Assembly: GCF_008119665.1 (NCBI RefSeq)
Contig: NZ_CP043046.1
Span: forward strand, 6,076,001-6,140,000
Source: Pigmentiphaga aceris
GTDB taxonomy: Bacteria; Pseudomonadota; Gammaproteobacteria; Burkholderiales; Burkholderiaceae_B
Length of the DNA: 64,000 nucleotides
Direction: 5' to 3'
Shown here: positions 3,603 through 57,865 of the stretch, one piece after another
How the letters are laid out: each line of letters opens with the position of its first letter
Position numbering within the stretch: position 1 is the first letter of the stretch
The notes under the pieces: model-generated
Database searches by the model: none
Told to the model about the DNA's origin: nothing
Seen by the model: only the letters and a program-made list of their open reading frames with translations
Made by a program: the position numbers and the translations under genes

Positions 3603-4610
3603 ATGGTGTCGCCCAGGCGGGCGCTGGCGATCCTGGGCGTTCTGCTGTTGGCCGCATTCGCCAGTCTGGTGGTGGCGGCGGCAGTGGGATCGGTTGCCAT
3701 CGCCCCGCGCGATTGGTGGCCTGCCCTGCACGATGCAATGGGCACCCCCGCTACGCTTTTCGGCACGCTGGTCGACCTTCGGGTGACCCGCGCGCTTTCT
3801 GCGATGGCCACGGGCGCATCGCTCGCCTTGGCTGGCCTGCTGCTGCAGGCCCTGCTGCGCAATCCCCTTGCCGATCCTTACGTGCTGGGCGTCTCTGGTG
3901 GCGCATCGGTAGGCGCACTGGCGGCCATGCTGTTTGCGCTGACATCGTGGCACGTCGACCTGGCCGCCTTTGCGGGTGCGGCAATCGCCACACTGCTGTT
4001 GTTCGCGCTGGCGCGCGACGACTTTCGTGCCGGCCCGGCCGGAGGCGCGCCCTTGCTGTTGTTGACCGGTGTGGTGCTGGCATCTGGCTGCGGCGCGCTG
4101 GTCACGCTGATGTTGTCGGTCGCACCGGAAGGCCGGCTGCGCGGCATGGTGTTCTGGCTGATCGGTGACCTGTCGGGCGCACAGGCGCGCTGGTTGCCGT
4201 GGGTGGCAGTGGTGCTGGCACTGGTGCTGTGCATGGCACGCGCTCGCGCCATCAACCTGATCGCGATGGTGTCGGACCATGCGGTGTCGCTGGGCGTGAA
4301 TGTGCCCCGCCTGCGGGTGCTGCTGTTTCTGTGCGCAGCGGGCCTGACCGCGAGTGCCGTCACCACGGCCGGCAGCATCGGTTTTCTGGGCTTGATCGTT
4401 CCGCATGCATGTCGTTTTGCACTCGGTCCCGATCATCGTCTGTTGATTCCCGCCAGCGCCTTGGCTGGCGGTACTTTCCTGGTGTTGGCCGACACCGCGG
4501 CGCGCAGCATCGTGGCCCCCATGCAGTTGCCGGTAGGGGTGATTACCGCGCTGATCGGCGTGCCCGCCTTCCTGCTGCAATTGCGTCATATCCGGAAGGT
4601 GCAGCGATGA
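3603..4610 (+). CDS. btuC: Vitamin B12 ABC transporter permease BtuC (FecCD family)
   Basis: A 335-residue polytopic inner-membrane protein with about ten hydrophobic segments. It has the FecCD/BtuC signature LLLQALLRNPLADPYVLGVSGGA and the ending PHACRFALGPDHRLLIPASA. The ATG at 3603 gives the normal family length; an in-frame TTG at 3564 is an alternative. It lies about 100 bases after btuB, and its stop codon overlaps the btuD start (ATGA). With BtuD and the periplasmic BtuF it moves B12 into the cytoplasm. Confidence 0.92.
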   Translation: MVSPRRALAILGVLLLAAFASLVVAAAVGSVAIAPRDWWPALHDAMGTPATLFGTLVDLRVTRALSAMATGASLALAGLLLQALLRNPLADPYVLGVSGGASVGALAAMLFALTSWHVDLAAFAGAAIATLLLFALARDDFRAGPAGGAPLLLLTGVVLASGCGALVTLMLSVAPEGRLRGMVFWLIGDLSGAQARWLPWVAVVLALVLCMARARAINLIAMVSDHAVSLGVNVPRLRVLLFLCAAGLTASAVTTAGSIGFLGLIVPHACRFALGPDHRLLIPASALAGGTFLVLADTAARSIVAPMQLPVGVITALIGVPAFLLQLRHIRKVQR

Positions 4611-40655: not shown

Positions 40656-41549
40656 TCAGCTATCGATGGCGCTGCCCAGTCCCTGCTTTTCCAGCAACGA
40701 AGACAGGTGCTCCCAGCCGTGGAAGGCAATCACGATCTGTCCTTTGTCACGCGCACCAAGCTTGAGCTTGACCTCCGTGCCCAGCTGATCGGACAGGGCC
40801 TCTTCCAAACGCGTCACGTCACGCGCCTGGACCTTGCTGCGGCGAACGGGTGCGTCCCCTTCGGCAAGCAGTTTGGCCACCAACTTTTCTGCCTCACGAA
40901 CCGACAGACGGCGTGCCACGATCTGGTTCGCCAGCTGAATCTGTGCTGCTGCGTCCACAGCCAACAGCGCGCGGGCATGTCCCATCTCCAGATCGCCGGC
41001 CAGCAACATGGTCTGCACCGGTGCAGCCAGGTTCAGCAGACGCAACAGGTTCGTGGTGGCTGACCGGGATCGGCCAACGGCTTGCGCCGCCTGCTCGTGA
41101 GTCAGACCGAATTCGTGGATCAGCCGCTGCACGCCTTGCGCCTCTTCCAGCGCGTTCAGGTCTTCACGCTGCAGGTTTTCGATCAAGGCCATGATCGCTG
41201 CGCGATCATCGGCCACGTCGCGGACCATCACCGGTACTTCTTCAAGCCCCGCCAGTTGCGCAGCGCGGAAGCGTCGCTCACCGGCAATGATCTCGTAGCG
41301 CCCTTCCCCGATCGGACGCACCAGCAGCGGCTGCATCACGCCCTGGGTGCGGATCGAGTCCGCCAGTTCGGCCAGCGCACCTTCGTCCATGCGGGTACGG
41401 GGCTGATATTTGCCTGCTTGCAGCACCGTGACCGGCAAGGACGACGGACTCGTATCCACCTCGCGGGCAACCAGCGAGAGTGCGCCGGGTGCGTCTTCGC
41501 CCAACAACGCATCGAGGCCGCGGCCGAGTCCCTTGGTTTTCTTGACCAT
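40656..41549 (-). CDS. parB: Chromosome partitioning protein ParB
   Basis: A 297-residue ParB/Spo0J protein. The N-terminus is KGLGRGLDALLG. The CTPase/sliding-clamp domain has QPLLVRPIGEGRYEIIAGER with the GERRFRAAQLAG motif. The helix-turn-helix region includes TNLLRLLNL, and a C-terminal dimerisation domain follows. The ATG at 41549 was chosen because other ParB proteins begin at this point; the frame extends nine codons upstream. It should bind the parS sites about 5 kb away near mnmG. A GNAT gene lies between it and parA. Confidence 0.96.
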   Translation of the reverse strand: MVKKTKGLGRGLDALLGEDAPGALSLVAREVDTSPSSLPVTVLQAGKYQPRTRMDEGALAELADSIRTQGVMQPLLVRPIGEGRYEIIAGERRFRAAQLAGLEEVPVMVRDVADDRAAIMALIENLQREDLNALEEAQGVQRLIHEFGLTHEQAAQAVGRSRSATTNLLRLLNLAAPVQTMLLAGDLEMGHARALLAVDAAAQIQLANQIVARRLSVREAEKLVAKLLAEGDAPVRRSKVQARDVTRLEEALSDQLGTEVKLKLGARDKGQIVIAFHGWEHLSSLLEKQGLGSAIDS

Positions 41550-41615
41550 GTCGATAAGACCTGTTTCGTGATTCATGTGAAGCGCCGCAGCGTCATGCGC
41601 GCGGTCGAGCGGGTG

Positions 41616-42428
41616 TCAGCCCGCAAAATTATCTGGCGCTCTGCGATACCAGTACGCAAAGCGATCTTGAAAACCATATTGGCAATACAGGTTGCGCGCG
41701 GGAGTGTTGCTGGCTGCCACCTGCAACACGGCATGTTGTGCCCCGTGCGCCACCGCTGCCCCCATGGCCGATGCCAGCAGGCTTCGGCCGATTCCCAGCC
41801 CACGGGTATTGGGATCGACCACCAGGTCGTAGATGCCCGCCAGCGTATCGTCCAGCACCACCAGCACGCCGCCCACACAACGTCGGCGATGCATGGCCAA
41901 CAAGGGCATCGCATCCATCGGCAGCTGCAATAGCTGGGCGACGTTGCTTTCGCTGTATTGCTCTGGCACCCCCAGCCGGCGGCCGATCTCGCGGGCGAAT
42001 CGTTCGCGATCGACCAGCTCGAAATGCAGGCCGGTGTCAGGCATTTCAGGTGGATGCGACAGATCGGCCGCCATCATGCGCCGATCGTCCACGGCTTCGA
42101 AACCACGCAGCGCCAGTGCTGCGTCGAGTTCTATCGGCTGGGAAAACGGCGAAATCCGCACTGTGGTCTTCATGCCATGCCGGGCATACCAGCGCGCGCA
42201 GAAACCAAGGCGGGCATCCAGCGTGCCCTGCCCCGGACCCAGCGCGTTGACACAACGCGTGCGCAACATGTGGCCGTTGTTCCAACGGATCAGCCACCCG
42301 TCGTACATCATCTGTTCACGCGTTGCCGTCGCGTTCAGAAAACTCTCCTCGATCCGCAAGGACAATGGGTCCTCGACCCGCAGCAACGCGGGCGCAATGG
42401 TGGTCGGATCGAAGACCGTCAAGTGCAT
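41616..42428 (-). CDS. GNAT-family N-acetyltransferase located between parA and parB
   Basis: A 270-residue protein. The C-terminal half is a GNAT domain with VVDPNTRGLGIGRSLLASAM (acetyl-CoA binding) and NTPARNLYCQYGFQ. The N-terminal half is less conserved and may be a second, degenerate GNAT fold. The ATG at 42428 is six bases from the parA stop, so it is likely co-transcribed with parA and parB. The substrate is unknown. The position inside parAB is the interesting point. Confidence 0.8.
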   Translation of the reverse strand: MHLTVFDPTTIAPALLRVEDPLSLRIEESFLNATATREQMMYDGWLIRWNNGHMLRTRCVNALGPGQGTLDARLGFCARWYARHGMKTTVRISPFSQPIELDAALALRGFEAVDDRRMMAADLSHPPEMPDTGLHFELVDRERFAREIGRRLGVPEQYSESNVAQLLQLPMDAMPLLAMHRRRCVGGVLVVLDDTLAGIYDLVVDPNTRGLGIGRSLLASAMGAAVAHGAQHAVLQVAASNTPARNLYCQYGFQDRFAYWYRRAPDNFAG

Positions 42429-42434
42429 ATGCAA

Positions 42435-43295
42435 TCAGAACAGCGAATCGACACGCGTGATCATTTCTGCACCAAAGGACAGGTAGGCCTGTGCGCCCTT
42501 GGATGCCTTGTCGAACACCACACCCGGCAGTCCATAACTAGGCGCTTCGGCCAAACGCACGTTGCGCGGAATGAGCGTGGAAAAGACCTTGTCACCGAAG
42601 TGGTTTTCCAATTGCGCAGATACCTGCTGCTGCAAGGTGACGCGCGGATCGAACATCACCCGCAACAAACCGATGATCGCCAGGTCAGGGTTGATGTTGG
42701 CGTGCACCCGCTTGATCGTGTTCACCAGGTCCGACAGACCTTCCAGTGCAAAGTACTCGCACTGCATCGGAATGATCACGCCATGGGCGGCGGTCAGTCC
42801 GTTCAGCGTCAGCAAGGACAAAGTCGGCGGGCAGTCGATCAGCACGAAGTCGTAGCTGTTCGACACCTCGGCCAACGCGGTCTTCAACTGCTTCTCGCGC
42901 GCTTCCAGTTCGACCAGATCCAGCTCGGCACCCGCCAGTTCTCGATTGGCAGGCAGCACGTCGTAGCCACCCGCCTCGGAACGCACCCGTGCCGTCGCAA
43001 TATCGGTCTCGCCGATCAGCACCTGATACAGGGTGGTGCTCAGGCTGCGTTTGTCGATGCCGCTTCCCATCGTGGCATTGCCCTGCGGGTCCAGGTCAAC
43101 CAACAGCACACGTTTGTCATGCTCGGCCAGCGCAGCAGCCAGATTGACTGCCGTGGTGGTCTTGCCGACACCGCCTTTCTGATTCGCGATGCAGAACACG
43201 CGTGCCGTCGTCGTCGCCGTTTTCTTGGCGGATTTTTTTGCAGGCGCGGTGCCAGCGTCAGAGGAAGATTGAGTACGGGAGTCTGCCATCGGCAT
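42435..43295 (-). CDS. parA: Chromosome partitioning ATPase ParA
   Basis: A 286-residue Walker-type ATPase. The deviant Walker A KGGVGKTTT is near residues 40-48. VLLVDLDPQGNATMGSG and FVLIDCPPTLSLLTLNG are further nucleotide-binding motifs. The first 30 residues form an extra Lys/Ala/Thr-rich leader. With ParB and parS it segregates the chromosomal origin. It lies downstream of rsmG and the lipocalin gene. Confidence 0.96.
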   Translation of the reverse strand: MPMADSRTQSSSDAGTAPAKKSAKKTATTTARVFCIANQKGGVGKTTTAVNLAAALAEHDKRVLLVDLDPQGNATMGSGIDKRSLSTTLYQVLIGETDIATARVRSEAGGYDVLPANRELAGAELDLVELEAREKQLKTALAEVSNSYDFVLIDCPPTLSLLTLNGLTAAHGVIIPMQCEYFALEGLSDLVNTIKRVHANINPDLAIIGLLRVMFDPRVTLQQQVSAQLENHFGDKVFSTLIPRNVRLAEAPSYGLPGVVFDKASKGAQAYLSFGAEMITRVDSLF

Positions 43296-43351
43296 CTGCT
43301 TGAATCTGCTTTCTAGAAAAAGGGTCGGGCGAGCACAGCCCGCCGGACCGG

Positions 43352-43897
43352 TCAGCGCGCGGTCTGCGGCGTGCGAACCAGCTTCGAGGCGTCGTAGCCG
43401 TGGCTGGGCAATTGAGCAAGAATGGTCTGCTCATCGGCCGCAGCCAAGCTCGGCGTGCGGGACAGTATCCACAGGTATTCGCGCGACGGGGTGCCCACCA
43501 CTGCGTAACGATAATCATCCGCAAGTGCAATCACCCAGTAGTCTCCCCACACCATGGGCAGCCACGACAGCCATGCCGGCGCGAACCGCACCTCAAGGCG
43601 GGCCGGCGCACCAGCTGGTCGCGCCAGACCGACCGCTACATCCTGCTTGCCGTCGGCATGGGTACATTGATTGGTGACCTCGATGCGCTCCGCATCGATC
43701 AGGCGATAGGTCGCCGTGGTGTCACGCACGCAGTCTTTCTGGAACCGGTTGGGGTAATTGGCAACTTCGTACCAGGTGCCCATGTAACGCGTCACATCCA
43801 ATGTCGGTATCGATTCCAGCGGTGCAACTTGCGCTGTCGCGCTGGCGCACACGCTGACGATCAGCGCGGCAAGACCTCGGCGCACCCAGGTCGTCAT
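43352..43897 (-). CDS. Bacterial lipocalin (Blc-like)
   Basis: A 181-residue exported protein. The signal peptide [27 protein letters not shown] segment lacks a proper lipobox, so it is more likely periplasmic than a lipoprotein. The lipocalin motif GTWYEVANYPNRFQKDC and the triplet YWVIALADDYRYAVVGTPS followed by YLWILSRTP are clear. Such proteins bind lipids or hydrophobic ligands. Its ATG overlaps the rsmG stop (ATGA), so it is co-expressed with rsmG and parA. Confidence 0.88.
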   Translation of the reverse strand: MTTWVRRGLAALIVSVCASATAQVAPLESIPTLDVTRYMGTWYEVANYPNRFQKDCVRDTTATYRLIDAERIEVTNQCTHADGKQDVAVGLARPAGAPARLEVRFAPAWLSWLPMVWGDYWVIALADDYRYAVVGTPSREYLWILSRTPSLAAADEQTILAQLPSHGYDASKLVRTPQTAR

Positions 43898-44604
43898 GAG
43901 GCCACCTCGTTGTCCGCAGTGCGCTTCATCCAGACGATGCAGCGCTGCGCCGACAGGCGCGGCACGAACAAGTTGGTCACGCCTTCCACCGCCCACTGCT
44001 TCTGGTCGCGGATGGCTGCCATTTCATCATCGGGCTGATGCCCTTTCATTGCCGTCAACAACCCGCCCGGGCGGACATGACGGCCAGCCAGTGCCGCGAA
44101 ATCCTGCAAGGACGCAAAGGCGCGCGAGACAACGATATCGGCATTGGCCAGCGGCATCGCTTCCACCCGCGAATGCACGGCGCTCAGGTTAGGCAACTTC
44201 AAGACGCTGGCAACCTGACGGACGAAGGCAACCTTCTTTTCCACCGCGTCAACGCAGCACACTTTCCACTCGGGCTGGACAATCGCCAGCACCACGCCCG
44301 GCAAGCCGCCGCCCGATCCGACGTCCAGGAAACTGGCGGGACCACCTTGCAGACGTTGTGCGAATTCCGGCACCACGGTCAGGCTGTCGACAATGTGATG
44401 CAGCAACATCTGCTGCGGGTCACGGATTGCCGTCAAGTTGTAGGTTGCGTTCCAGCGCATCATCAGCGCCATGTAATTCAGCAAGGCGTCGATCTGTGCG
44501 TGGCGCAAGGGAAGACGCAGTTTGGCTGCGTCGGTTTCAAGCTGGGCTGCAAATACTGCGCCGTTGAAAGGTGCGGTCGTCGGGTTCTGGGTGGTATCCA
44601 TCAT
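43894..44604 (-). CDS. rsmG: 16S rRNA (guanine527-N7)-methyltransferase RsmG (GidB)
   Basis: A 236-residue SAM-dependent methyltransferase. The conserved N-terminal [16 protein letters not shown] leads into the SAM-binding loop [28 protein letters not shown] is the family motif. Loss of RsmG gives low-level streptomycin resistance in several bacteria. It overlaps mnmG upstream and the lipocalin gene downstream. Confidence 0.96.
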
Positions 44605-46523
44605 GCCGCTGCCGTGGTGTCACGGCGTCCGTATTGCAAACGTTTCAGATGAATCAGCAGCAGTGAAATCGCAGCCGGCGTCATGCCGGAGATGCGACTG
44701 GCCTGGCCTACCGTTTCGGGCAAATGCGTCTTGAGTTTCTGGCGAACTTCAAAGGACAGGCTGCGCACCGCGTCGTAGTCGATATCGGCGGGGATGCGGT
44801 GATTTTCGTGGCCAGCCTGTTTCTGCACTTCATCCAACTGACGTGCGATATACCCTTCGTACTTGACCTGGATTTCGATCTGTTCGGCCACGATGGGGTC
44901 AGCTTCACCCGGCCCAGCCAGCAAGCTGTCATCGGCCAGGCGGGCAGCCATCAGTGCCTCGTAAGACACGTTCGGGCGCTTGAGCAGATCGAACAGGGAA
45001 TATTCACGCTCGATCGCCTTGCCCAGCAAGGGTTCGGCAATGGCCGCCGTCAAAATGCGCGGATTGACCCAGGTAGCGCGCAGGCGCTGCACTTCCCGCT
45101 CGATGGCATCACGCTTGCGGTTGAAGGCATCCCAGCGGATGTCATCGACCAAGCCCAGTTCGCGTCCGACTTCGGTCAGACGAAGATCGGCATTGTCTTC
45201 CCGCAGGCTCAGGCGATATTCCGCGCGCGAAGTGAACATGCGATACGGCTCGGTCACCCCCCGGGTGATCAGGTCATCTACCATCACGCCCAGATACGCT
45301 TCATCGCGACGCGGTGTCCACGGTTCGTCATTGCGTGCAAATCGGGCAGCGTTGATGCCGGCCAGCAGACCTTGGGCAGCCGCCTCTTCGTAGCCTGTGG
45401 TGCCGTTGATCTGGCCGGCGAAGAACAGCCCTTCGATTTGGCGCGATTGCAGCGACGAGGTCAGTCCACGCGGGTCGAAGTAGTCGTATTCGATCGCATA
45501 ACCCGGACGCAAGATGAATGCGTTTTCCAGGCCGGGCAACGAGTGAATCAACTCAAGCTGCACATCGAAGGGCAAGCTGGTCGACACACCGTTCGGATAA
45601 AACTCGTTGGTGGTCAGGCCTTCGGGCTCCAGGAAAATCTGGTGCGATTCCTTGTCCGCGAAGCGATGGATCTTGTCTTCGATCGACGGGCAGTAACGCG
45701 GCCCCACGCCCTCGATCACACCGGTGTACATCGGCGACCGATCCAGACCAGCACGAATGATGTCGTGGGTGCGGGCGTTGGTATGGGTCACCCAGCACGG
45801 CACTTGTTTGGGATGCATCGCGGCATTGCCCAAATACGAGAACACCGGCACCGGGTCCAGGTCACCGGGTTGTTCAGCAAGCTTGCTGAAATCGATGGTG
45901 CGCCCATCGATACGCGGCGGCGTACCGGTTTTCAACCGACCTTGCGGCAACGCAAGTTCCTGCAGTCGCTTGCCCAAGGACTGCGCCGGCGGGTCCCCTG
46001 CCCTGCCTGCCGGATAGTGGGACAGGCCCACGTGAATCAATCCGTTCAGGAAGGTACCGGCCGTGACCACCACCGAGCGCGCGCGAAAGCGCAGACCAAC
46101 CTGCGTGACTGCGCCGACAACCTTGTTGCCTTCAACCATCAGGTCGTCAACAGCTTGCTGGAAGAGCCACAGGTTTGGCTGATTTTCCAAGCGGCTTCGA
46201 ATCGACTGCTTGTAGATAATTCGATCTGCTTGAGCACGCGTGGCACGTACTGCCGGGCCTTTCGATCCGTTCAAGATACGAAACTGGATGCCGGCCTCAT
46301 CGGTGGCAATGGCCATCGCTCCGCCCAGGGCATCGATCTCTTTGACAAGATGGCCTTTGCCGATCCCGCCAATGGAAGGATTGCAAGACATCTGCCCCAG
46401 GGTCTCGATGTTATGGGTGAGCAGCAGGGTTTTGCTGCCGGAACGCGCGGCGGCCAATGCTGCCTCGGTGCCGGCGTGACCGCCGCCCACGACAATGACG
46501 TCGAATTCGCTTGGGTACAACAT
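44601..46523 (-). CDS. mnmG: tRNA uridine-5-carboxymethylaminomethyl modification enzyme MnmG (GidA)
   Basis: A 640-residue FAD-dependent enzyme that, with MnmE, modifies the wobble U34 of several tRNAs. It shows the FAD-binding [17 protein letters not shown] near residue 13, [29 protein letters not shown] and FGQIN-type segments. The C-terminal domain ends in [18 protein letters not shown]. It is the first gene of the rsmG-parAB cluster and often flanks the replication origin. The parS sites lie just upstream. Confidence 0.97.
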
Positions 46524-46686
46524 GAGAGAAATCCAGAAGAAGACCTGCAGGACGCGCGACGCGCTTATCTGACGTTAAAAACGTAGACGCTTGTATGGGC
46601 CAGAACCAAAGATTATAGGAGTGCACGCAGTGATAAGCGAGCCCGCCGGTACTGTCAGGTCTACATCAAGGGGCTGTTTCTATCGA

Positions 46687-46702
46687 TGTTCCACGTGAAA
46701 CA
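46687..46702. other. parS site 1
   Basis: TGTTCCACGTGAAACA matches the universal parS consensus TGTTTCACGTGAAACA at 15 of 16 positions. It is the exact reverse complement of parS sites 2 and 3. It lies 164 bases upstream of mnmG. Confidence 0.95.
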
Positions 46703-46764: not shown

Positions 46765-46780
46765 TGTTTCACGTGGAACA
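46765..46780. other. parS site 2
   Basis: TGTTTCACGTGGAACA matches the parS consensus at 15 of 16 positions. Its centre is 78 bases from site 1. Confidence 0.95.
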
Positions 46781-46841
46781 TTGGAAGTGGGATGCTTTGT
46801 TCCAGTGTTGGTGCTGAGTTGATTGCGTGCGCGGCGGGTAT

Positions 46842-46857
46842 GTTTCACGTGGAACAT
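46842..46857. other. parS site 3
   Basis: TGTTTCACGTGGAACA is identical to site 2 and 77 bases from it. The three sites form a regular ParB-loading cluster. Confidence 0.95.
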
Positions 46858-46929
46858 TGTTGGATTTGCGCCGGATATACATGGTTCTTGGTTGGTGTTT
46901 TATGGCTGGTTTGTAGAGCTATGTAGCGC

Positions 46930-48005
46930 CATGCAGCCAGTCGCGGGTGTCGGGGGCGCGTCGCCTGCCCCGCTAGACCTACGCGTCGGGTCTCCCGCCC
47001 TCCACGTCGTCCAGAAGGGCAGCCGCCACGCCCCCGACACCCACGCCTTCAAAGCGGTTTGGTTAAAAGCTGATCCCGCCTTTGGGCGTGCCGTGATTTT
47101 CTGGCTGCCATGTGCTGGATGCGGTTCTCGGCATTTGGTGGCCACCGTTCTTAGCCACAACGCGGCTGGCCTTCGGGATTAGCTGTCCAGGTCGCCACGA
47201 AGCGAGTCAGCGGCTCACGTTTCTGACCGTATATCAGTGGCCTTTTGCAGCAGCGCCACTCAACAAGATCGCGCTCCTGCTTGGTGGTGGGGTGACACGG
47301 AAGCGGGTGGCCGCGCATCAGGTAATGCGACGAAAAGGCGGGGCGTCGACGATCTGTGCTTTTCAGGTTTGAGCGTAAGCGGGCCGAGCGGCAGCTTGAG
47401 TACGGACGTACCCTGACGGATACGTTTTTGGCAGCGAGCTGCTGCTGGCAGAACGTCGTGCAGTCCGAGCAATGGGTCTGTCTCGTTCGATTGTCAGCAT
47501 GCTCAACCTACCAAGCGTTCCTCAATTTCACGTTAGCAATCGACGTTCACATTAGGCTTTCAACTCTCACGCTTAGCCGCCCCCACCACGTTTGCCGCCA
47601 CCCTTCTCCGCATGCCGTGACGCGGCGGCCACCCGCTTCGGTGTCACCCCACCACCAAGCAAGCGCGCAAATTTCCTTGAGTGGCATTGCTGTAAAAGGC
47701 TGCTGAAGAACCTACCGAATTGCGAGCCGGAGGCGTCGCTTCGTGGCGACCTAGCCAGCCAATCCCCCGAGGCCAGCCGCGTGGCGATCAAGAATGGTGG
47801 CCAATAAATGCCGAGAACCAAGTCCAGCACCAAGCAGCCAGAAGAACAAAAACCGCCCAAAGGCGGCATGCGCAGCTAACCAAGAAAGCCTGAAGGCGTG
47901 GGTGGTGGGGCCGGGTCGGCTGCCCTTCTGGACAAGGTGGAGGGCGGAGACCCGACGCCAAGGTCAAGCGGGGCAGACGAGCCGGCCCCACCACCCGCGA
48001 CTGAC
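46930..48005. repeat. Long imperfect inverted repeat (about 430-bp arms, about 215-bp spacer)
   Basis: The left arm (about 46940-47360) matches the reverse complement of the right arm (about 47575-48000) along its whole length with small indels. Examples are GGTGGTGGGGTGACAC beside AAGCGGGTGGCCGC, GGTTCTCGGCATTT, GGTCGCCACGAAGCGA, CCAGAAGGGCAGCCG and CGTCGGGTCTC. Identity is perhaps 70-80 percent by eye. Short open frames in both arms encode related peptides but carry no known domain, and no transposase is seen. The spacer (47373-47570) includes a possible decayed helix-turn-helix remnant. The element may belong to a dispersed repeat family; its function is unknown. Confidence 0.75.
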
Positions 48006-48076
48006 TAAAGCACAGCTACACCATCACCAAAAAACTGCCACCACCCCAAATTGCTGCAGTGCGACAACCTCAGCAA

Positions 48077-51155: not shown

Positions 51156-51480
51156 GGGTGGCGTCCTTTAAATAAAGAAAAGTGCACTGAAACCAAGAAC
51201 GCCGACACCAACTGGAATGCGGAAAGCCTCCGCATAAGGCAGACGGGACTTGCGCACTACTGGAATTCAACTGCGAAATGCAGCATACCCGCGCAAAACA
51301 GACGAATCAAACCTTTGCCAATGAAATTGTTAGTAATTCGCAATACGTATCGGGAAAACCCTTAAAGTCACGTGGGGCTTGGATATGCGGGTATTGAACG
51401 GGGGTCCGGCAGCCCATTTGAACCATCATCGCGTGGGCTAGACTGGCACCTCTGCCTGAACAGTTACCAAGTTGCCAACC
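51156..51480. other. Intergenic stretch between the divergent cspA and aminotransferase genes
   Basis: About 325 bases, probably with the cspA leader and promoter on the minus strand and the aminotransferase promoter on the plus strand. A stem AGCCCA (51411-51416) / TGGGCT (51434-51439) is seen. No gene was recognised. Confidence 0.35.
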
Positions 51481-52647
51481 ATGGTCCTTTCCAAGCTGCC
51501 GGATGTCGGCACCACCATTTTCACTGTCATGAGCCGCCTGGCGACCGAACGCCAAGCGATTAATCTCGGACAGGGATTTCCTGACTTCAATCCGGATTCG
51601 CGCCTGATCGCGCTGGTCGACGAAGCGATGAAGGCGGGTCATAACCAATATCCGTTCATGCCGGGCGTCGCCCCCTTGCGCCAAGCCATCGCCGACAAGA
51701 TCGAAACGCTTTACGGCCACGCCTACCACCCGGATACCGATATCACGGTCACCAGCGGTGCCACCCAGGCGCTGATGACGGCAATCATGGCCACTGTGCA
51801 CCCTGGCGATGAGGTCGTGGTGCTGGAGCCCTGCTACGACAGCTACGTGCCTGCCATTCGCCTGGCTGGCGGCACACCGGTACCCGTGCCGCTGCGTACG
51901 CCCCAGACGGACGACCCGTATTACCGGGTGGAATGGGATCGCGTGCGTGCGGCCATCACCTCGCGCACCCGTCTGCTGCTGATCAACTTCCCGCACAACC
52001 CCACCGGCGCGGTATTGAACGACGCCGATCTGGATGCGCTGGAAAAGATCGTGTCGGATACCGGTGTGATTCTGCTGTCGGACGAAGCCTACGAACACAT
52101 CGTGTTCGACGGCGTGCTGCATGCGTCGATTGCACGTCGCCCTGCCCTGGCGGCCCGTTCCATCCTGATCGGTTCGTTCGGCAAGACTTTCCACATCACT
52201 GGATGGAAACTGGGCTATTGCTGCGCACCAGCGGCGCTCACGGTGGAATTGCGCAAGGTTCACCAGTTCATGGTGTTCACCGTCTCGTCCCCCATGCAGT
52301 TTGCGGTGGCGGAATATCTGAAAGACCCCCTGCCCTACCTGAATCTGCCCACGTTCTACCAGGCCAAGCGCGACCGCCTGTTCGAAGGCTTGAAGAAAAC
52401 CCGTTTCCGTCCGCTGCCCAGCCCGGGCACGTTCTTCCTGCTGGCAGATTACTCGGCGATTTCCGACGTGCCGGAAGCCGAGTTTGCCAAATGGCTGACG
52501 ACTGAGCACGGCGTGGCCGTCATCCCGATTGCAGCGTTCTACGGCAAACCGGATGCGCCCTCTTCCAACCGTCAGATGGTTCGCTTCTGCTTCGCCAAGC
52601 AGGACGCCACGCTCGACACCGCACTGGAACGCCTGCAACGGGTGTGA
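51481..52647 (+). CDS. PLP-dependent aminotransferase, methionine aminotransferase (YbdL-like)
   Basis: A 388-residue fold-type I aminotransferase. It shows INLGQGFPDFNPD, TSGATQALM, NFPHNPTGAVL, LLSDEAYEHIVFDG, the PLP lysine in SFGKTFHITGWKLGYC and the substrate Arg in MVRFCFAK. These fit the YbdL/kynurenine aminotransferase subgroup, which acts on methionine and aromatic amino acids. An ATG at 51481 was preferred to an in-frame TTG at 51472. Confidence 0.88.
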   Translation: MVLSKLPDVGTTIFTVMSRLATERQAINLGQGFPDFNPDSRLIALVDEAMKAGHNQYPFMPGVAPLRQAIADKIETLYGHAYHPDTDITVTSGATQALMTAIMATVHPGDEVVVLEPCYDSYVPAIRLAGGTPVPVPLRTPQTDDPYYRVEWDRVRAAITSRTRLLLINFPHNPTGAVLNDADLDALEKIVSDTGVILLSDEAYEHIVFDGVLHASIARRPALAARSILIGSFGKTFHITGWKLGYCCAPAALTVELRKVHQFMVFTVSSPMQFAVAEYLKDPLPYLNLPTFYQAKRDRLFEGLKKTRFRPLPSPGTFFLLADYSAISDVPEAEFAKWLTTEHGVAVIPIAAFYGKPDAPSSNRQMVRFCFAKQDATLDTALERLQRV

Positions 52648-53000: not shown

Positions 53001-53530
53001 GTTTATCCACTGTGAATCTGCCTGGTGAGCCCGGCAGGTACCAGCGCATCAGTTTCCCATCCCCTTGCACGTCCGTTTTGCACGGCTTGTTCCACATGCC
53101 TGTTCTGCATGTCTTCAAGTCGGCAATCCCCTTTGCATCGCCAAGACGTGATCCCTGCATTGCCAGGAATCCTTGCCTTTGGTCTTCAGCAAGTCCCGGA
53201 GGGACGCGTCGTCGCAGCTAGGAAGGTTGTTATACACATTACTATCTATCTTGATAGTAGTAGGTAATAGGTGTCTGTGGATAACTCGAAGTTCTTCACT
53301 TTATCTTTATTTATCAACAACCTGCGCGATTTTTTTGGCGTGGAAAAGTATGAACCTGTAGTGTATCTGGAAAATGAACAACTTTTTCCACAGAACAAAT
53401 AAGCAGCCTTATCCAGAAATTATCAACAGGCTGTGCACAAGTTCTTTTCCCTCACGTTGTCCACAGGCGTGTTGATAAGTTTTTGCACCAGAACTGCGGA
53501 TAACTTCAACATTTCGCCGTCATCCACAGC
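53001..53530. other. AT-rich DnaA-box cluster, candidate replication origin (copy A)
   Basis: This 530-base gene-free region has two exact TTATNCACA boxes: TTATACACA (53230-53238) and TTATCCACA on the minus strand (53276-53284). About ten 8-of-9 matches also occur, for example at 53003, 53311, 53384, 53409, 53420, 53432, 53457, 53470, 53495 and 53520. It is much richer in A+T than its neighbours, with T-rich tracts near 53300-53340 that could unwind. It sits beside the gene polarity switch and about 6 kb from parS. The preceding part (52760-53000) holds nothing recognised. Confidence 0.6.
53255..53440 (+). repeat. Diverged direct repeat, copy A
   Basis: This is collinear with copy B at 57504-57690. 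It starts with TAGTAGTAGGTAATAGG followed by GTCTGTGG, then TTATCAACAAC at offset 56 and AAAATGAACAA at offset 116. It ends with ATCAACAGGCTGTGCACAA at offset 167. In copy B these blocks are at offsets 56, 117 and 168. Sequence between the blocks has drifted. Confidence 0.88.
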
Positions 53531-53583
53531 CCCAACTTTTCGGCTTGTCCACGTGTCGTGGCCGCCATTGCTCCAGGATCTGC

Positions 53584-54717
53584 ATGCTTCGTTTTATCCA
53601 CACCGCCGATTGGCAGATTGGTCGCCACTACGGTCAGTTCGATGTCGAAGACGGCGCGGTGCTGGCCGATGCCCGAATCGACACCGTTGGCCGGATTGCC
53701 CAGCTGGCGGCATCCCGCCAGGTCGATGCCGTGCTGGTCGCCGGTGATGTGTTCGACACCCAGGCGGTGTCGGACCGGACCATTCGCCGCCTGTTTGCAG
53801 CGCTCGCACCGTTTGCCGGCCCGTGGATCATGATTGCGGGCAACCACGACGCCGCGCTGGCCGACAGCGTGTGGACTCGCGCCGCGCAACTGGGCTGCGT
53901 ACCCGCCAATGTCCATCGACCGAACGGCCTGCTGGTGCTGCCGGACCTGCGCGCAGCCGTGCTCGCCGCCCCGCTGACCCAGCGTCATACCTACGACGAT
54001 GTGACCGACGCCTTCGACCGGCTGGAAAGTCCGGACGACCACCTTCGCATCGGCATTGCCCATGGCAGCGTGACCGGCCGCCTGCCCGACACCATCGATT
54101 CGACCAACTCGATTGCCGCAGACAGGGCCAGCCGGGCACGTCTGGACTACCTGGCGCTGGGCGACTGGCATGGCTGCCTGCAGATCGACGCCAACACCTG
54201 GTACGCCGGCACGCCGGAACAGGACCGCTTTCGCGGCAACGAACCGGGCTTCGTGCTGGAAGTCGCCATTGATGCGGTGGGCGCAGTGCCCGCCGTGACC
54301 CGTCACCAGATCGGCCGTTATGTCTGGTCGTCCTGGTCGGTGCATATCTCGGTGCCCAGCGATGTCGATGAACTCGCCCAACGCTTGGCGCAACTAGGTC
54401 CGCAGGACGTGTTGCAGATCGAGGTGGGCGGACACGTCAATCTCGCCACGCGAGATCGGCTGGATGCCTGCCTGGCCGATGCCTCGGCACGGGTGCGATC
54501 GCTGCGCAGCGATGTGACGGCCATGGTGCTGGAGCCGGACGAACATGATCTGGTCACGCTCGGCGCGCAGGGTTATGTCTCCGATGTGCTGCAGCAGTTG
54601 CGGGTCTTGCAGGAAGACCCCGCCAAGGCGGACCTGGCTCGCGAAGCACTCGGTCTGCTGGTTCGTTATCAACGTGAACTGACTGTGGATGCGCCTGCGA
54701 AGGAGGCCGGGAAATGA
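53584..54717 (+). CDS. SbcD-like DNA repair exonuclease (metallophosphoesterase)
   Basis: A 377-residue calcineurin-fold nuclease of the SbcD/Mre11/YhaO group. Its motifs are HTADWQIG (D9), LVAGDVFDT (D55), AGNHD (86-90), IGIAHGSV and LALGDWHG. In motif I a Gln stands where SbcD has His (DWQ instead of DWH), and the last motif is GDWHG rather than GHxH; I believe this occurs in a proteobacterial subgroup. AGGA (53575-53578) precedes the ATG. The gene overlaps its ATPase partner by four bases. It likely processes DNA ends. Confidence 0.82.
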   Translation: MLRFIHTADWQIGRHYGQFDVEDGAVLADARIDTVGRIAQLAASRQVDAVLVAGDVFDTQAVSDRTIRRLFAALAPFAGPWIMIAGNHDAALADSVWTRAAQLGCVPANVHRPNGLLVLPDLRAAVLAAPLTQRHTYDDVTDAFDRLESPDDHLRIGIAHGSVTGRLPDTIDSTNSIAADRASRARLDYLALGDWHGCLQIDANTWYAGTPEQDRFRGNEPGFVLEVAIDAVGAVPAVTRHQIGRYVWSSWSVHISVPSDVDELAQRLAQLGPQDVLQIEVGGHVNLATRDRLDACLADASARVRSLRSDVTAMVLEPDEHDLVTLGAQGYVSDVLQQLRVLQEDPAKADLAREALGLLVRYQRELTVDAPAKEAGK

Positions 54718-57377
54718 GTCAGGACCGCATGGACCAAAACCGCATGAAACTCGACCGCATCGCACTCGAAGAATTCCGCCGCTTCCGCGCCCCCTTTGCG
54801 CTCGATGGATTGCAGCCTGGGCTCAATCTTTTTGTCGGTCCGAACGAAGCCGGCAAAAGCACCATTGCCGCTGCCCTGCGCGGTGCGTTTCTTCAGCGTT
54901 TCAAGACCTCGAAAGTCGAAGACTTCGCCCCCTGGAACAGCAGCGGTGCCCGCCCCACCGTCACCGTGCAATTCCGCGTCGGTGCCCGCGAATACGAACT
55001 GCGTAAATCCTTTCTGACCAAGGCCCGTTGTGAACTGCTGATCGACGGCGGTGCCCAGCGACTGGAAGGCGAACAGGCAGAAGACGCGCTGGCTGAACTA
55101 CTGGGTTTCGAGTTCGCCAGCAAAGGACAGAGCAAAGCCGAACACAGTGGTGTGCCCGGCCTCTTGTGGATACAGCAAGGCGAGGGACAGAACCTGTTGG
55201 AACCGGCCGCCTACGCCGGTTCCCATCTGCGCGATGCGCTCAGTCAGTTGTCGGGCGAGCTGGTCACGGGTGACAGCGACCGCGTGTTCGACCGTGCCGT
55301 CGAGGCGCGCGCCGCCCTGCGTGATGCCCGCAGCAACCGTCCCAAAGGCGAGTACAAAGCGGCGGAAGATGCCTTGGCCGAAGCGATGGCCAGACAAAGC
55401 ACATTGCTGGCAGAAAAAACCCGCCTGGATACCGATGTAGACCAGCTGGCGCAACTGCGCGACACCCACGAAAAAGCACGCCAGGCCCAGCCCTGGACCG
55501 AGCTGGAAAAACAGGCGGCACAGGCACGTGACAAGCTGGCCACCATCCGTCGTGACCAGGATGCCGCCGACGCCTTGAAACGTGAATCGCTGCAGGCCGC
55601 ACAGACCCTGACACTGCTGCAGGAACAGGTTGCACGCGACCAGCAGGACGAAGACGAAGTCGCTGCGCTGGCGCGCGAGCTTGAAAAGGCCGACCAGGCG
55701 GTCACCCAGGCCCAGGAGACGCGTCAGCGTACCGAGACCTCGGTCGCAGGCCGTACCGAGGCTGCAAACGCCGCCACGGCGCTTCTGGAGGCAGCACAGG
55801 CCGAATCCGAGCGGCGAGACCTGTCCGACCAGATCGTCCGGGCCGAGCGCGAACTGGGGCGTCTGGAGACGGCACACCGCGAAGCTCAGGTGCTCACCCA
55901 GCGCATTGCCGAATTCGATGCCCAGGTGCAGGCCAATCATCTTGATTCCGCACAGCTGACGGCATTGCGCACCGGCAGCCAGCAGCTTGCCCCCCTGCAA
56001 TCCCGACAAAGCGCAGGGGCGACACGCCTGTCTTTCCATCTGGACTCGGCAAACACCACGGACGTCAGTCTGGATGGCGTGAGCCTGCAAGGCACTGGCG
56101 AGCGGCAACTGAGCGCGGAAACGCTGCTTGCGATTGCCGGTATCGGCCGTTTCCAGATTGCCCCCGGTGGTGCCGATCTGCCGACACTGCGGTTGGAAAT
56201 CGCAAGCCTGCAGCGTGAACAGACTTTGTTGCTGGAAAAGCTTGGTGTGGCCGATCTGGCCGCAGCCGATGCCCGCGCAATGAGCGGTGAACGGGCACGG
56301 CGCGATGCACAGGCTGCGCGCAAGGAACTGGCCATCCATGCACCCGACGGGCTCGATGCCTTGCTCGCATCGATCCAGGAAAACCGTGCGCGCATCACCC
56401 AATTGACTGCACGCGCGCAGGCCTTGCCGGTACTTGCCGAAGCCCCGTCATCGCTGTCCTTGCCCGAGATCACGGCCGCTCAGCGAGAAGCCCAAACCGC
56501 CTTGATCCACGCGCAAAAAGCCGTGACGCAGGCGCAGCGTGCCTTCGATCAGGTCCACGCCCAGGCACAACTGCTGCGGTCGCAACTGGATGCGCGTCGT
56601 TCAGTGCGTGAACAACCCAGCAACCTGGACGCCCGTGCACAGCGTGGCAGTCGTCTGGTCTTGGCGCGTGCAGCACGCGACGATCTGCAGTCCCGTGTGC
56701 AAGCCGCCGAAGCCGCGATTGCAGCCCATCAGCCTGCGCTGATCGAACAGGACATGAAGCGCTTCGAGCAATCGGCGCGCATTGCCCGGGAAACCCACGA
56801 AGCCAGACACGCATCGATCCTGCAATTACAAGGTCGTCTGGATCAGGCGGGCAGTCAGGGCGTGGGCGAAAACCTGGCGCAAGCCGCTGCCGATGTCGAG
56901 CGCCTGCAACGCAGGCGCGACGAATTTTCGCGGCGTGCCCTGGCGCTGGATCTGCTCGTCGATCTGCTGCGCACGCAGCGAGATGCCGCGACTCAACGTC
57001 TGCAAGCACCTTTGGCCAGGCGCTTGAACCACTACCTGCATCTGCTTTTCCCGAATGCTGCCCTGCGTCTGGACGACAGCCTGATGCCAACCGGCTTGCA
57101 ACGGGGTGACAACGAAGACCTGCTGCGAAGCCTGAGTTTCGGTACGCAAGAACAGCTTGGGGTGCTGGTCCGTCTGGCCTATGCCGATTTATTACAGGAA
57201 GCAGGACGACCAACGCTGCTGATTTTGGACGATGCCTTGGTACATGCCGATGAATCACGGCGTGCCCTGATGAAACGTGCCTTGTTCGATGCCGGTGAAC
57301 GTCACCAGATCCTGATCTTCACTTGCCACGGAGAGATGTGGCAGGACTTGGCAGTTGCGCCAAGAAGTCTGGGTTGA
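54714..57377 (+). CDS. SbcC/Rad50/YhaN-like coiled-coil ATPase
   Basis: An 887-residue SMC-like ATPase. Walker A is GPNEAGKST (42-50). Long Ala/Gln/Glu/Arg-rich coiled coils (about 200-400 and 480-760) are split by a globular segment around 410-470. The C-terminal lobe has SFGTQEQLGVLVRLAYADLL (signature) and LLILDDALVHADESRR (Walker B plus D-loop). No CxxC zinc hook is present, unlike true SbcC/Rad50. M11 is an alternative start. With the upstream nuclease it forms a two-gene operon that lies exactly between the two DnaA-box repeats. Confidence 0.82.
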   Translation: MSQDRMDQNRMKLDRIALEEFRRFRAPFALDGLQPGLNLFVGPNEAGKSTIAAALRGAFLQRFKTSKVEDFAPWNSSGARPTVTVQFRVGAREYELRKSFLTKARCELLIDGGAQRLEGEQAEDALAELLGFEFASKGQSKAEHSGVPGLLWIQQGEGQNLLEPAAYAGSHLRDALSQLSGELVTGDSDRVFDRAVEARAALRDARSNRPKGEYKAAEDALAEAMARQSTLLAEKTRLDTDVDQLAQLRDTHEKARQAQPWTELEKQAAQARDKLATIRRDQDAADALKRESLQAAQTLTLLQEQVARDQQDEDEVAALARELEKADQAVTQAQETRQRTETSVAGRTEAANAATALLEAAQAESERRDLSDQIVRAERELGRLETAHREAQVLTQRIAEFDAQVQANHLDSAQLTALRTGSQQLAPLQSRQSAGATRLSFHLDSANTTDVSLDGVSLQGTGERQLSAETLLAIAGIGRFQIAPGGADLPTLRLEIASLQREQTLLLEKLGVADLAAADARAMSGERARRDAQAARKELAIHAPDGLDALLASIQENRARITQLTARAQALPVLAEAPSSLSLPEITAAQREAQTALIHAQKAVTQAQRAFDQVHAQAQLLRSQLDARRSVREQPSNLDARAQRGSRLVLARAARDDLQSRVQAAEAAIAAHQPALIEQDMKRFEQSARIARETHEARHASILQLQGRLDQAGSQGVGENLAQAAADVERLQRRRDEFSRRALALDLLVDLLRTQRDAATQRLQAPLARRLNHYLHLLFPNAALRLDDSLMPTGLQRGDNEDLLRSLSFGTQEQLGVLVRLAYADLLQEAGRPTLLILDDALVHADESRRALMKRALFDAGERHQILIFTCHGEMWQDLAVAPRSLG

Positions 57378-57443
57378 GAAAGCAGGTTGAAGAAAGAACG
57401 CAGTCGAGTTTTACGTAGTCCACAGCAGAAAAACGGGAAGTTC

Positions 57444-57470
57444 TGCGCCGTCAGGCGCAAATTTCTCTTG
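57444..57470 (+). terminator. Weak terminator-like hairpin after the SbcC-like gene
   Basis: TGCGCC (57444-57449) and GGCGCA (57454-57459) pair around GTCA, followed by the interrupted T tract AATTTCTCTT. Confidence 0.45.
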
Positions 57471-57480
57471 AAGGGTTCTT

Positions 57481-57500
57481 ATGTAGATAACTATCTACAT
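57481..57500. repeat. Perfect 9-bp inverted repeat before copy B
   Basis: ATGTAGATA (57481-57489) and TATCTACAT (57492-57500) are separated by AC. At the same place before copy A there is a weaker inverted repeat (CTATC ... GATAG near 53242-53257). Confidence 0.7.
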
Positions 57501-57503
57501 AAA

Positions 57504-57690
57504 TAGTAGTAGGTAATAGGAGTCTGTGGGTAACTTCAACTCGGACCAAAAACTTAGCGTTATCAACAACTTAGATCGAAATTTTGACTGTGGAGAACTC
57601 TGGTCCGGTGGTGTAGCCGCAAAATGAACAAGTTTTCCCCAGCCGGAAAATCGTCGGATTTGTCCCTGATCATCAACAGGCTGTGCACAA
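57504..57690 (+). repeat. Diverged direct repeat, copy B
   Basis: This is collinear with copy A (53255-53440) with only about one base of net length change. It starts with the identical 17-mer TAGTAGTAGGTAATAGG and ends with the identical 19-mer ATCAACAGGCTGTGCACAA. The rest of the 488-base gap (57378-57865) has an exact DnaA box TTATGCACA at 57706-57714. It also has one-mismatch boxes at 57482, 57525, 57560, 57589 and 57682. No gene was recognised in the gap. Confidence 0.88.
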
Positions 57691-57865
57691 CTCGATTCCC
57701 AGCGCTTATGCACAAGCTGGAAATCCCAGGTTTTCCCTGACCATGCACAGCTGATCCCGGCGGCAGCCACCTGTCCCGTACACTTGCAGCCCCAGTCTGG
57801 GGACATCTTTTTCGGGCTTTTTTTGAGCTCTTTTTGGGCGTACGGGCCTTGCCCTGTCGCAATGC

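Follow-up and report, generated by a model that had tools for sequence, protein, structure and literature searches.

The DNA analyzed in this study, hereafter the window, is a 64,000-nucleotide stretch of the chromosome of Pigmentiphaga aceris (genome G000; NZ_CP043046.1; C1:6076001-6140000, where C1 is the single 6,165,255-bp contig). It contains two DnaA-box-rich repeats, units 1 and 2 (copies 1 and 2), which lie in direct orientation on either side of an operon that encodes an SbcD-like metallophosphoesterase and an SbcC/Rad50-like ATPase. The two repeats are probably two complete units of the chromosomal replication origin (oriC), which together would form an old and maintained compound, or twin, origin. 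Of the genomes examined, 39, including that of P. aceris, carry the unit as a same-strand twin, which supports and extends the idea of a duplicated origin that was put forward in a first-pass annotation of this DNA.

Extent and anatomy of the repeats

Alignment of the two intergenic stretches gave 67.8% identity over 255 nt (E = 5.6e-29). Four collinear blocks, including D1 (69 nt, 80%), D2 (63 nt, 71%), and D3 (22 nt, 95%), are common to both copies at a spacing of 4249-4250, and exact words of 18 nt (at 53254/57503), 11 nt (53311/57560), 11 nt (53371/57621), and 19 nt (53422/57672) occur in both. The first-pass annotation had described four collinear blocks with identical 17- and 19-mers; its offsets, counted from 53255 and 57504, were reproduced exactly, and its 17-mer is the 18-mer, which extends one base further at the left. 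A whole-genome search with copy 1 returned only itself and copy 2 (70%, E = 6e-14), no third copy of the repeat was found in G000, and the many further copies that had been named beforehand as evidence against an origin did not appear. Recombination between the copies is possible, but their common exact words are at most 19 nt long. Assembly duplication is an unlikely source of the repeat because the copies differ at approximately one-third of their positions and because single-contig genomes (e.g., G011, G128, G131, G147, and G165) also have twins.

DnaA boxes of the type TTATNCACA with at most one mismatch number 38 in the window, whereas dinucleotide shuffling gives an expectation of 20.7 ± 4.9, and not one of the 100 shuffled sequences had as many as 38. 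Across 400 kb spanning the copies and dnaA, 22 of the 15,990 overlapping 250-nt windows contain at least four boxes, and all 22 are inside the copies. The weighted box score in 500-nt windows is 18 and 8 for the two copies and 5 for the next best site. The box-dense windows amount to a DnaA-box cluster well above background, as expected of an oriC. Chance similarity and general AT-richness are ruled out as explanations by the genome search, the shuffles, and the box-dense windows. The earlier description of the repeats as rich in DnaA boxes holds, but an exact box at 53594 lies inside the codons for FIHT at the start of the SbcD-like protein. Exact boxes at the same place in six relatives (L150, L156, L166, L178, L180, and L189) suggest that this box is a coding coincidence.

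The two units are homologous over their whole length and share one layout (Table 1), which from left to right comprises an AT-rich flank, a DnaA-trio tract, a minus-strand DnaA box, an array of further boxes separated by conserved words, and finally a conserved 3' box. Units 1 and 2 of G000 have four and three trios and flanks with an AT content of 0.67 and 0.69, respectively. The 500-nt box peak consists of three exact and nine one-mismatch boxes in unit 1 and of one exact and five one-mismatch boxes in unit 2. An AT-rich flank with DnaA-trios beside a DnaA box is a further mark of an oriC and is found, by sequence, in both units. The basal unwinding system (BUS) is described in the accessible part of its source as a DnaA box plus DnaA-trios (PMC6669920). 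Both units resemble the BUS in that a box adjoins a trio tract with an AT-rich flank, and they differ from it in that this arrangement is present twice in the G000 twin, where unwinding is a prediction.

At such a unit, the box next to the trios would be the site from which ATP-DnaA loads onto them and then melts the DNA, as in the BUS. Either unit would in principle be able to start forks, and the two may assist each other through looping of the spacer. Because forks from one unit would replicate the other passively, a spacer of a few kilobases should be harmless and should therefore tolerate insertions. In the species represented by G000, the spacer would have taken up the SbcD/SbcC-like operon, which would not be needed for origin function.

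Twin units in the genus and the family

A unit of approximately 245 bp was found 0.2-5.4 kb downstream of the methionine aminotransferase gene in all 10 congeners. At this place, eight of them have one unit, and the other two (G001 and G007) have two direct copies approximately 0.65 kb apart, without the SbcD/SbcC-like operon. A more sensitive scan revealed that all eight single-copy congeners also have another unit with a weaker match; in the three congener loci that were fetched, this unit is flanked by dnaA and dnaN, and the coordinates in G008 agree with this position (four of the eight placed). The dnaA-dnaN oriC-like units (L264:5078-5259, L265:5024-5205, and L266:1127-1321) are in the opposite orientation to dnaA. 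Elsewhere in the genome, G001 and G007 have only a 68-nt partial match, and G000 has none. All 11 genomes of the genus have at least two unit-like elements (three twins beside the aminotransferase gene, and eight genomes with one unit there and a degenerate one elsewhere), a pattern that might reflect a need for a second unit at some site. In the tree of MnmG and the aminotransferase, which was rooted on 16 other family genomes, G000 branches first, followed by G001 and G007 and then by the eight (95/90); from this order, the twin at the aminotransferase gene is likely to be ancestral in the genus. When the copies of G000 were compared with those of G001 and G007, the informative sites supported within-species pairing in 12 cases, orthology in 6, and a crossed arrangement in 2.

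Two models were used for scans of the family, which is probably Alcaligenaceae, i.e., R1, built from 14 units that are all of this genus, and R2, built from 53 units across the family. R1 matched in 124 and R2 in 131 of 151 family genomes. By the table count, 60 genomes have at least two R2 matches and 71 have one, although some of the second matches may be antisense overlaps or far apart (G074 and G146). Thirty-seven multi-match genomes outside the genus, picked for having two matches, were fetched, and all 37 contain two units, which are on the same strand in 36. In G065 (L238:4999-6774), the two units are divergent around the aminotransferase gene, as if the segment had been inverted. The 36 genomes together with G000, G001, and G007 make up the 39 same-strand twins, a set that excludes G065 and the unfetched genomes; among the unfetched pairs, G156 and G090 are weak, and G012, G092, G095, and G121 are same-strand by their coordinates. 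The twins are mostly at one syntenic place, with the aminotransferase gene upstream in 35 of the 39 and outside the DNA examined in G018, G019, G072, and G082. An order-wide scan of 150 genomes, at least five of them of the family, gave a match in 59, with lower scores beyond the family, and yielded a few candidates for same-strand pairs (G042, G209, and G269). Achromobacter belongs to Alcaligenaceae, as stated in the part of the source consulted (PMC4256396).

The twin spacers are 148-4491 bp long and contain different genes or none. Their contents, named by eye from the translations, are AT-rich noncoding DNA and dehydrogenase-, asparaginase-, phosphatase-, and acyl-CoA dehydrogenase-like genes. 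In genus g63, the spacers of G103, G163, G178, and G072 (L246, L259, L263, and L267, respectively) all contain a small protein family and a dehydrogenase-like gene, and three of the four contain an asparaginase-like gene; this recurring set indicates that spacer cargo can persist through speciation. The single and double states of the unit that the first-pass annotation had proposed to look for in relatives were both found, and doubling is independent of the sbcDC-like pair. The proposed cassette, inserting by duplicating origin DNA, is not supported, as G001, G007, and 36 genomes of other genera have the twin without the operon. As a general cause, a target-duplicating insertion cassette is ruled out by these operon-free twins and by the varied spacers.

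Both members of the twin show conservation of the box and the trios. The trio-proximal box has at most one mismatch in both units in 39/39 twins and is exact in both in 26. At least two trios (loose pattern) are found in both units in 35/39 twins and at 29/344 background boxes outside the units, a background that is generally less AT-rich and favors the units somewhat; unit 2 alone has at least two trios in 37/39. The median AT content of the flanks across the twins is 0.69 and 0.73. Between G001 and G007, the units are 83.5 and 80.4% identical, compared with 49.6% for the spacer, and the corresponding values are 84.9 and 77.7% versus 49.2% for G019/G082, 76.8 and 80.9% versus 58.1% for G076/G105, and 77.8-88.1 and 72.8-76.6% versus 37.4-53.2% among the four closest genomes of genus g6. 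Separate clades of copy 1 and copy 2 were obtained within g2 (5/6 genomes), g6 (4/6), g10, g63 (copy 1, five; copy 2, four of five), and G001/G007. Because copy-1s and copy-2s cluster separately within these genera, the twin is older than the species concerned. In comparisons between genera, no clean separation of the copies into two clades was obtained, and repeated duplication and gene conversion are therefore indistinguishable.

The SbcD/SbcC-like operon in the spacer

The claim that just one operon, encoding a nuclease and an SMC-like ATPase, lies between the copies is borne out by the domain matches (Table 1). The SbcC-like ATPase has the Walker A (GPNEAGKS), signature (LSFGTQ), and Walker B (LLILDD) motifs of an SMC-like ATPase. 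SbcCD has a CxxC hook in its coiled coil, and no CxxC was found in the 887 aa of the SbcC-like ATPase. Motif I of SbcD is usually DxH; in 20 aligned sequences of the SbcD-like family, including that of G000, it is DWQ, with Gln in place of His. The SbcD-like protein scores 47.6 bits with TIGR00619, for which the cut-off is 77.65. The pair is similar to SbcCD and Mre11-Rad50 in being a nuclease-ATPase gene pair with phosphoesterase and Rad50-like ATP-binding motifs, but it falls below the NCBIfam cut-offs and differs in the DWQ and the missing CxxC, and its relation to SbcD and Rad50 is weak. A defense-system label for the operon was rejected, with weak matches only, mostly to the shared ATPase domain.

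Relatives of the SbcD-like gene with E < 1e-100 occur in 10 of 60 other genomes searched, and Achromobacter aestuarii has a near named relative. Whole-genome searches, which covered this gene and not the SbcC-like one, did not find it in any of the 10 congeners. No DnaA-box cluster was found in the DNA examined around 90 loci with an SbcD-like relative (10 plus 80 named), where the best weighted 300-nt score is 4. The 38 other twin regions contain no match to either protein, and the pair was found only in the spacer of G000. Because the SbcD-like gene is absent from all 10 congeners and twins exist without the operon, the operon is most likely a passenger that is dispensable for origin function. 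The suggestion that an end-processing complex is functionally lodged in the origin does not agree with this absence or with the lack of a box cluster at the 90 loci.

A near-palindrome of approximately 1.07 kb, with arms that are 72-93% complementary in blocks and without a recognized gene, lies at positions 46935-48006 of the window. It is dispersed in G000, with at least 144 local matches at at least 39 loci, itself included; the other copies are 73-89% identical (a lower bound, with 40 of 81 candidates scored). No member of the family was found in 163 other fetched sequences (approximately 3.6 Mb from other genomes). That a near-palindrome adjoins the SbcD/SbcC-like pair may be a coincidence.

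Table 1. Features of the twin region and its surroundings (window positions). Units 1 and 2 themselves belong to the unit profile, R1, and R2 models, and their scores are partly by construction.
Feature	Position	Strand	Evidence or remarks
parB, parA, rsmG, mnmG cluster left of the origin	40656..46523	-	
parS-like palindromes beside mnmG	46679-46702, 46765-46781, 46841-46864	.	TGTTTCACGTGGAACA type
Methionine aminotransferase gene, conserved left neighbor of unit 1	51472..52647	+	NF006569, 601 bits; synteny
Putative oriC unit 1 (copy 1)	53218..53466	+	Unit profile 204 bits, R1 146.5 bits, R2 118.5 bits
DnaA-trio-like tract of unit 1, ATAGTAGTAGGTAATAGG	53254..53271	+	Trio definition from the accessible part of PMC6669920
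Exact DnaA box TTATCCACA adjoining the unit 1 trio tract	53276..53284	-	
DnaA-box array of unit 1	53311..53465	.	Boxes at 53311, 53384, 53409, 53420, 53432, 53457, each with one mismatch
Three additional one-mismatch boxes between unit 1 and the sbcD-like start	53470..53528	.	At 53470, 53495, 53520
SbcD-like metallophosphoesterase gene, spacer cargo	53584..54717	+	PF00149, E 1.1e-11; TIGR00619, E 1.9e-12, below cut-off
SbcC/Rad50-like ATPase gene, spacer cargo	54714..57377	+	PF13514, E 3e-6
Putative oriC unit 2 (copy 2)	57467..57715	+	Unit profile 200.7 bits, R1 139.7 bits, R2 102.6 bits
DnaA-trio-like tract of unit 2, same 18 nt ATAGTAGTAGGTAATAGG	57503..57520	+	
One-mismatch DnaA box TTACCCACA adjoining the unit 2 trio tract	57525..57533	-	
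3' box TTATGCACA of unit 2	57706..57714	+	

Position of the origin and competing explanations

The units are in a conserved position by replication and partition genes, as is typical of an oriC; i.e., the parB-parA-rsmG-mnmG cluster is nearby, with mnmG 6.7 kb from unit 1 on its left, and the aminotransferase gene is syntenic. The three parS-like palindromes beside mnmG are 6.4 kb from copy 1. The skew test that had been named beforehand gave a divided answer, in that the minimum coincides with the twin in G128 and lies well away from it, near dnaA, in G000. The single-contig twin genome G128 has its cumulative GC-skew minimum at distances of 2.9 and 1.6 kb from its two units and its keto minimum 0.2 kb from unit 1, in agreement with the gene-wise fit. 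In G008 (also a single contig), both cumulative minima (GC and keto) are 0.9 kb from the aminotransferase-side unit, and the dnaA-side unit is rejected by the gene-wise fit (2 delta log-likelihood, 30.5).

Several observations weigh against a twin origin. The GC-skew minimum of G000 is 28.7-32.9 kb to the right of the units, and the gene-wise fit in this genome disfavors them (2 delta log-likelihood, 12.2 and 14.5). The gene-wise fit in G008 prefers a point 52 kb to the left, with the aminotransferase-side unit mildly disfavored (5.35), and the twin genome G131 has its minimum at a distance of 92 kb (12.2). The trio-proximal box of unit 2 in G000 is the weaker one, with one mismatch. The 150 nt to the left of unit 1 are about as conserved as unit 1 itself in G001/G007 (80.0%), G019/G082 (88.7%), and G076/G105; the spacer is as conserved as the units in g2, and the contrast between units and spacer is small or absent in g53 and g63, which have gene-bearing spacers. 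A single R2 match was obtained in 71/151 family genomes, and 20/20 fetched single-match loci show one unit in 12 kb. With regard to the skew, a rearrangement could move the minimum. The 26 kb to the right of copy 2, up to the genes that precede dnaA (C1:6133867-6159853), have a left-arm-like skew, and 21 of the 22 open reading frames (ORFs) in this segment are without a match in 400 kb of G008, the remaining one having a weak match. This segment is not singled out as a new arrival because most ORFs to the right of gyrB are also without a match there, and its recent arrival is not established as the cause of the shifted skew.

If only one unit (here, unit 1) works, the other would be a relic or a DnaA-binding control site (for titration or as a reserve) that never fires, and we regard this as a serious possibility, although not a probable one. 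Unit 1 has the more numerous and better boxes, the trio-proximal box of unit 2 is mismatched, 71 of the 131 matched family genomes have a single match, and in Pseudomonas aeruginosa only one of two autonomously replicating elements is essential under laboratory conditions (PMC4403523). However, in the twin relatives unit 2 nearly equals unit 1 in the quality of both box and trios and is conserved far above the spacer in several genera, and a pure titration site would need neither trios nor an AT-rich flank. A classical bipartite origin like those of Bacillus subtilis and Helicobacter pylori, in which two box clusters are looped, both are needed, and one melts, is unlikely. According to the accessible parts of the sources, such an origin has two box-bearing subregions, of which a single one includes the unwinding element, and dnaA is in most cases the gene that separates them (PMC4285127 and PMC6669920); the spacer length of B. 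subtilis can be altered to some extent, as stated in the same part of the former. The G000 twin is similar in having two nearby DnaA-box clusters with a gene-bearing spacer. It differs in that the units are homologous along their entire length and each appears complete, and the spacer content varies among genomes. The trio tract is present in both units in 35/39 twins, and the median flank is AT-rich for both units, so that one-sided unwinding is not what the sequence predicts, and related genera have a single unit.

Improbable, in our view, is the arrival of the operon with its own copy of the origin, for example, on a circle (oriC plus operon) that integrated by crossover at oriC and thereby generated direct repeats. 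This would explain why the operon lies between direct oriC repeats and why its first gene is absent from 10/10 congeners, and the two G000 copies pair on the element tree (98/75), but the operon-free twins make duplication independent of the operon, and the order of the rooted tree makes an ancestral twin the simpler history. It is similarly improbable that replication starts at dnaA, at a distance of 31-36 kb, and that the twin is an old DnaA-box cluster. The GC-skew minimum of G000 is 3 kb from dnaA, but the DNA ahead of dnaA contains a single exact box without a cluster, no unit was found at dnaA in G000, and the skew fit of G008 speaks much more strongly against the dnaA-side unit than against the aminotransferase-side unit, the site of both minima. 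We consider a functional tie between the SbcD/SbcC-like complex and the origin, with the complex acting on DNA ends or hairpins that arise there or close by, to be very improbable. Its position, the weak relation to SbcD and Rad50, and the near-palindrome family, one member of which is 5 kb from unit 1, would fit such a role, but neither protein has a match in the other twin regions, and 0/90 loci of relatives have a DnaA-box cluster.

A twin of two complete oriC units is likely to be a novel form of compound origin in bacteria. That a bacterial chromosome has one origin is almost a textbook rule. It appears rather doubtful that much of the family naturally maintains a tandem of two complete oriC units, each competent by itself, with both used and both selected; if true, this would be a standing exception to the rule. 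In 2015, the use of two functional origins on the same chromosome was stated to be without evidence so far (Gao 2015, PMC4403523). Four bacteria with putative double origins are given there, none named as Alcaligenaceae, and the predicted double origins in DoriC are those of Acidaminococcus, Dehalobacter, Ralstonia pickettii 12D, and Ochrobactrum (PMC4403523). These cases are similar to the twin in having two candidate origins on one chromosome, but they involve duplication of the dnaA region or origins 150-882 kb apart, whereas the twin is a homologous direct repeat that recurs across many genera. Kerstersia gyiorum presumably belongs to the twin-bearing family. One oriC of 933 bp, which could be long enough for a close pair, is predicted for this species in the part of the source consulted (PMC6461280), and the part of PMC10225481 that was available names neither Bordetella nor Achromobacter. 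No description of such a twin origin was found in the open-licence literature, judging by titles and abstract openings. The recurrent and apparently maintained oriC tandem makes it testable, in common laboratory bacteria, whether both units fire, whether they help each other, and what limits their spacing, and one family supplies both twin and single-unit species for comparison. The twin spacer is, in addition, a place where operons settle beside the origin.

Outside the twin, an RhtA-like exporter gene follows copy 2, and a cobalamin riboswitch (Rfam RF00174, 87 bits) is present at positions 1249-1476 of the window.

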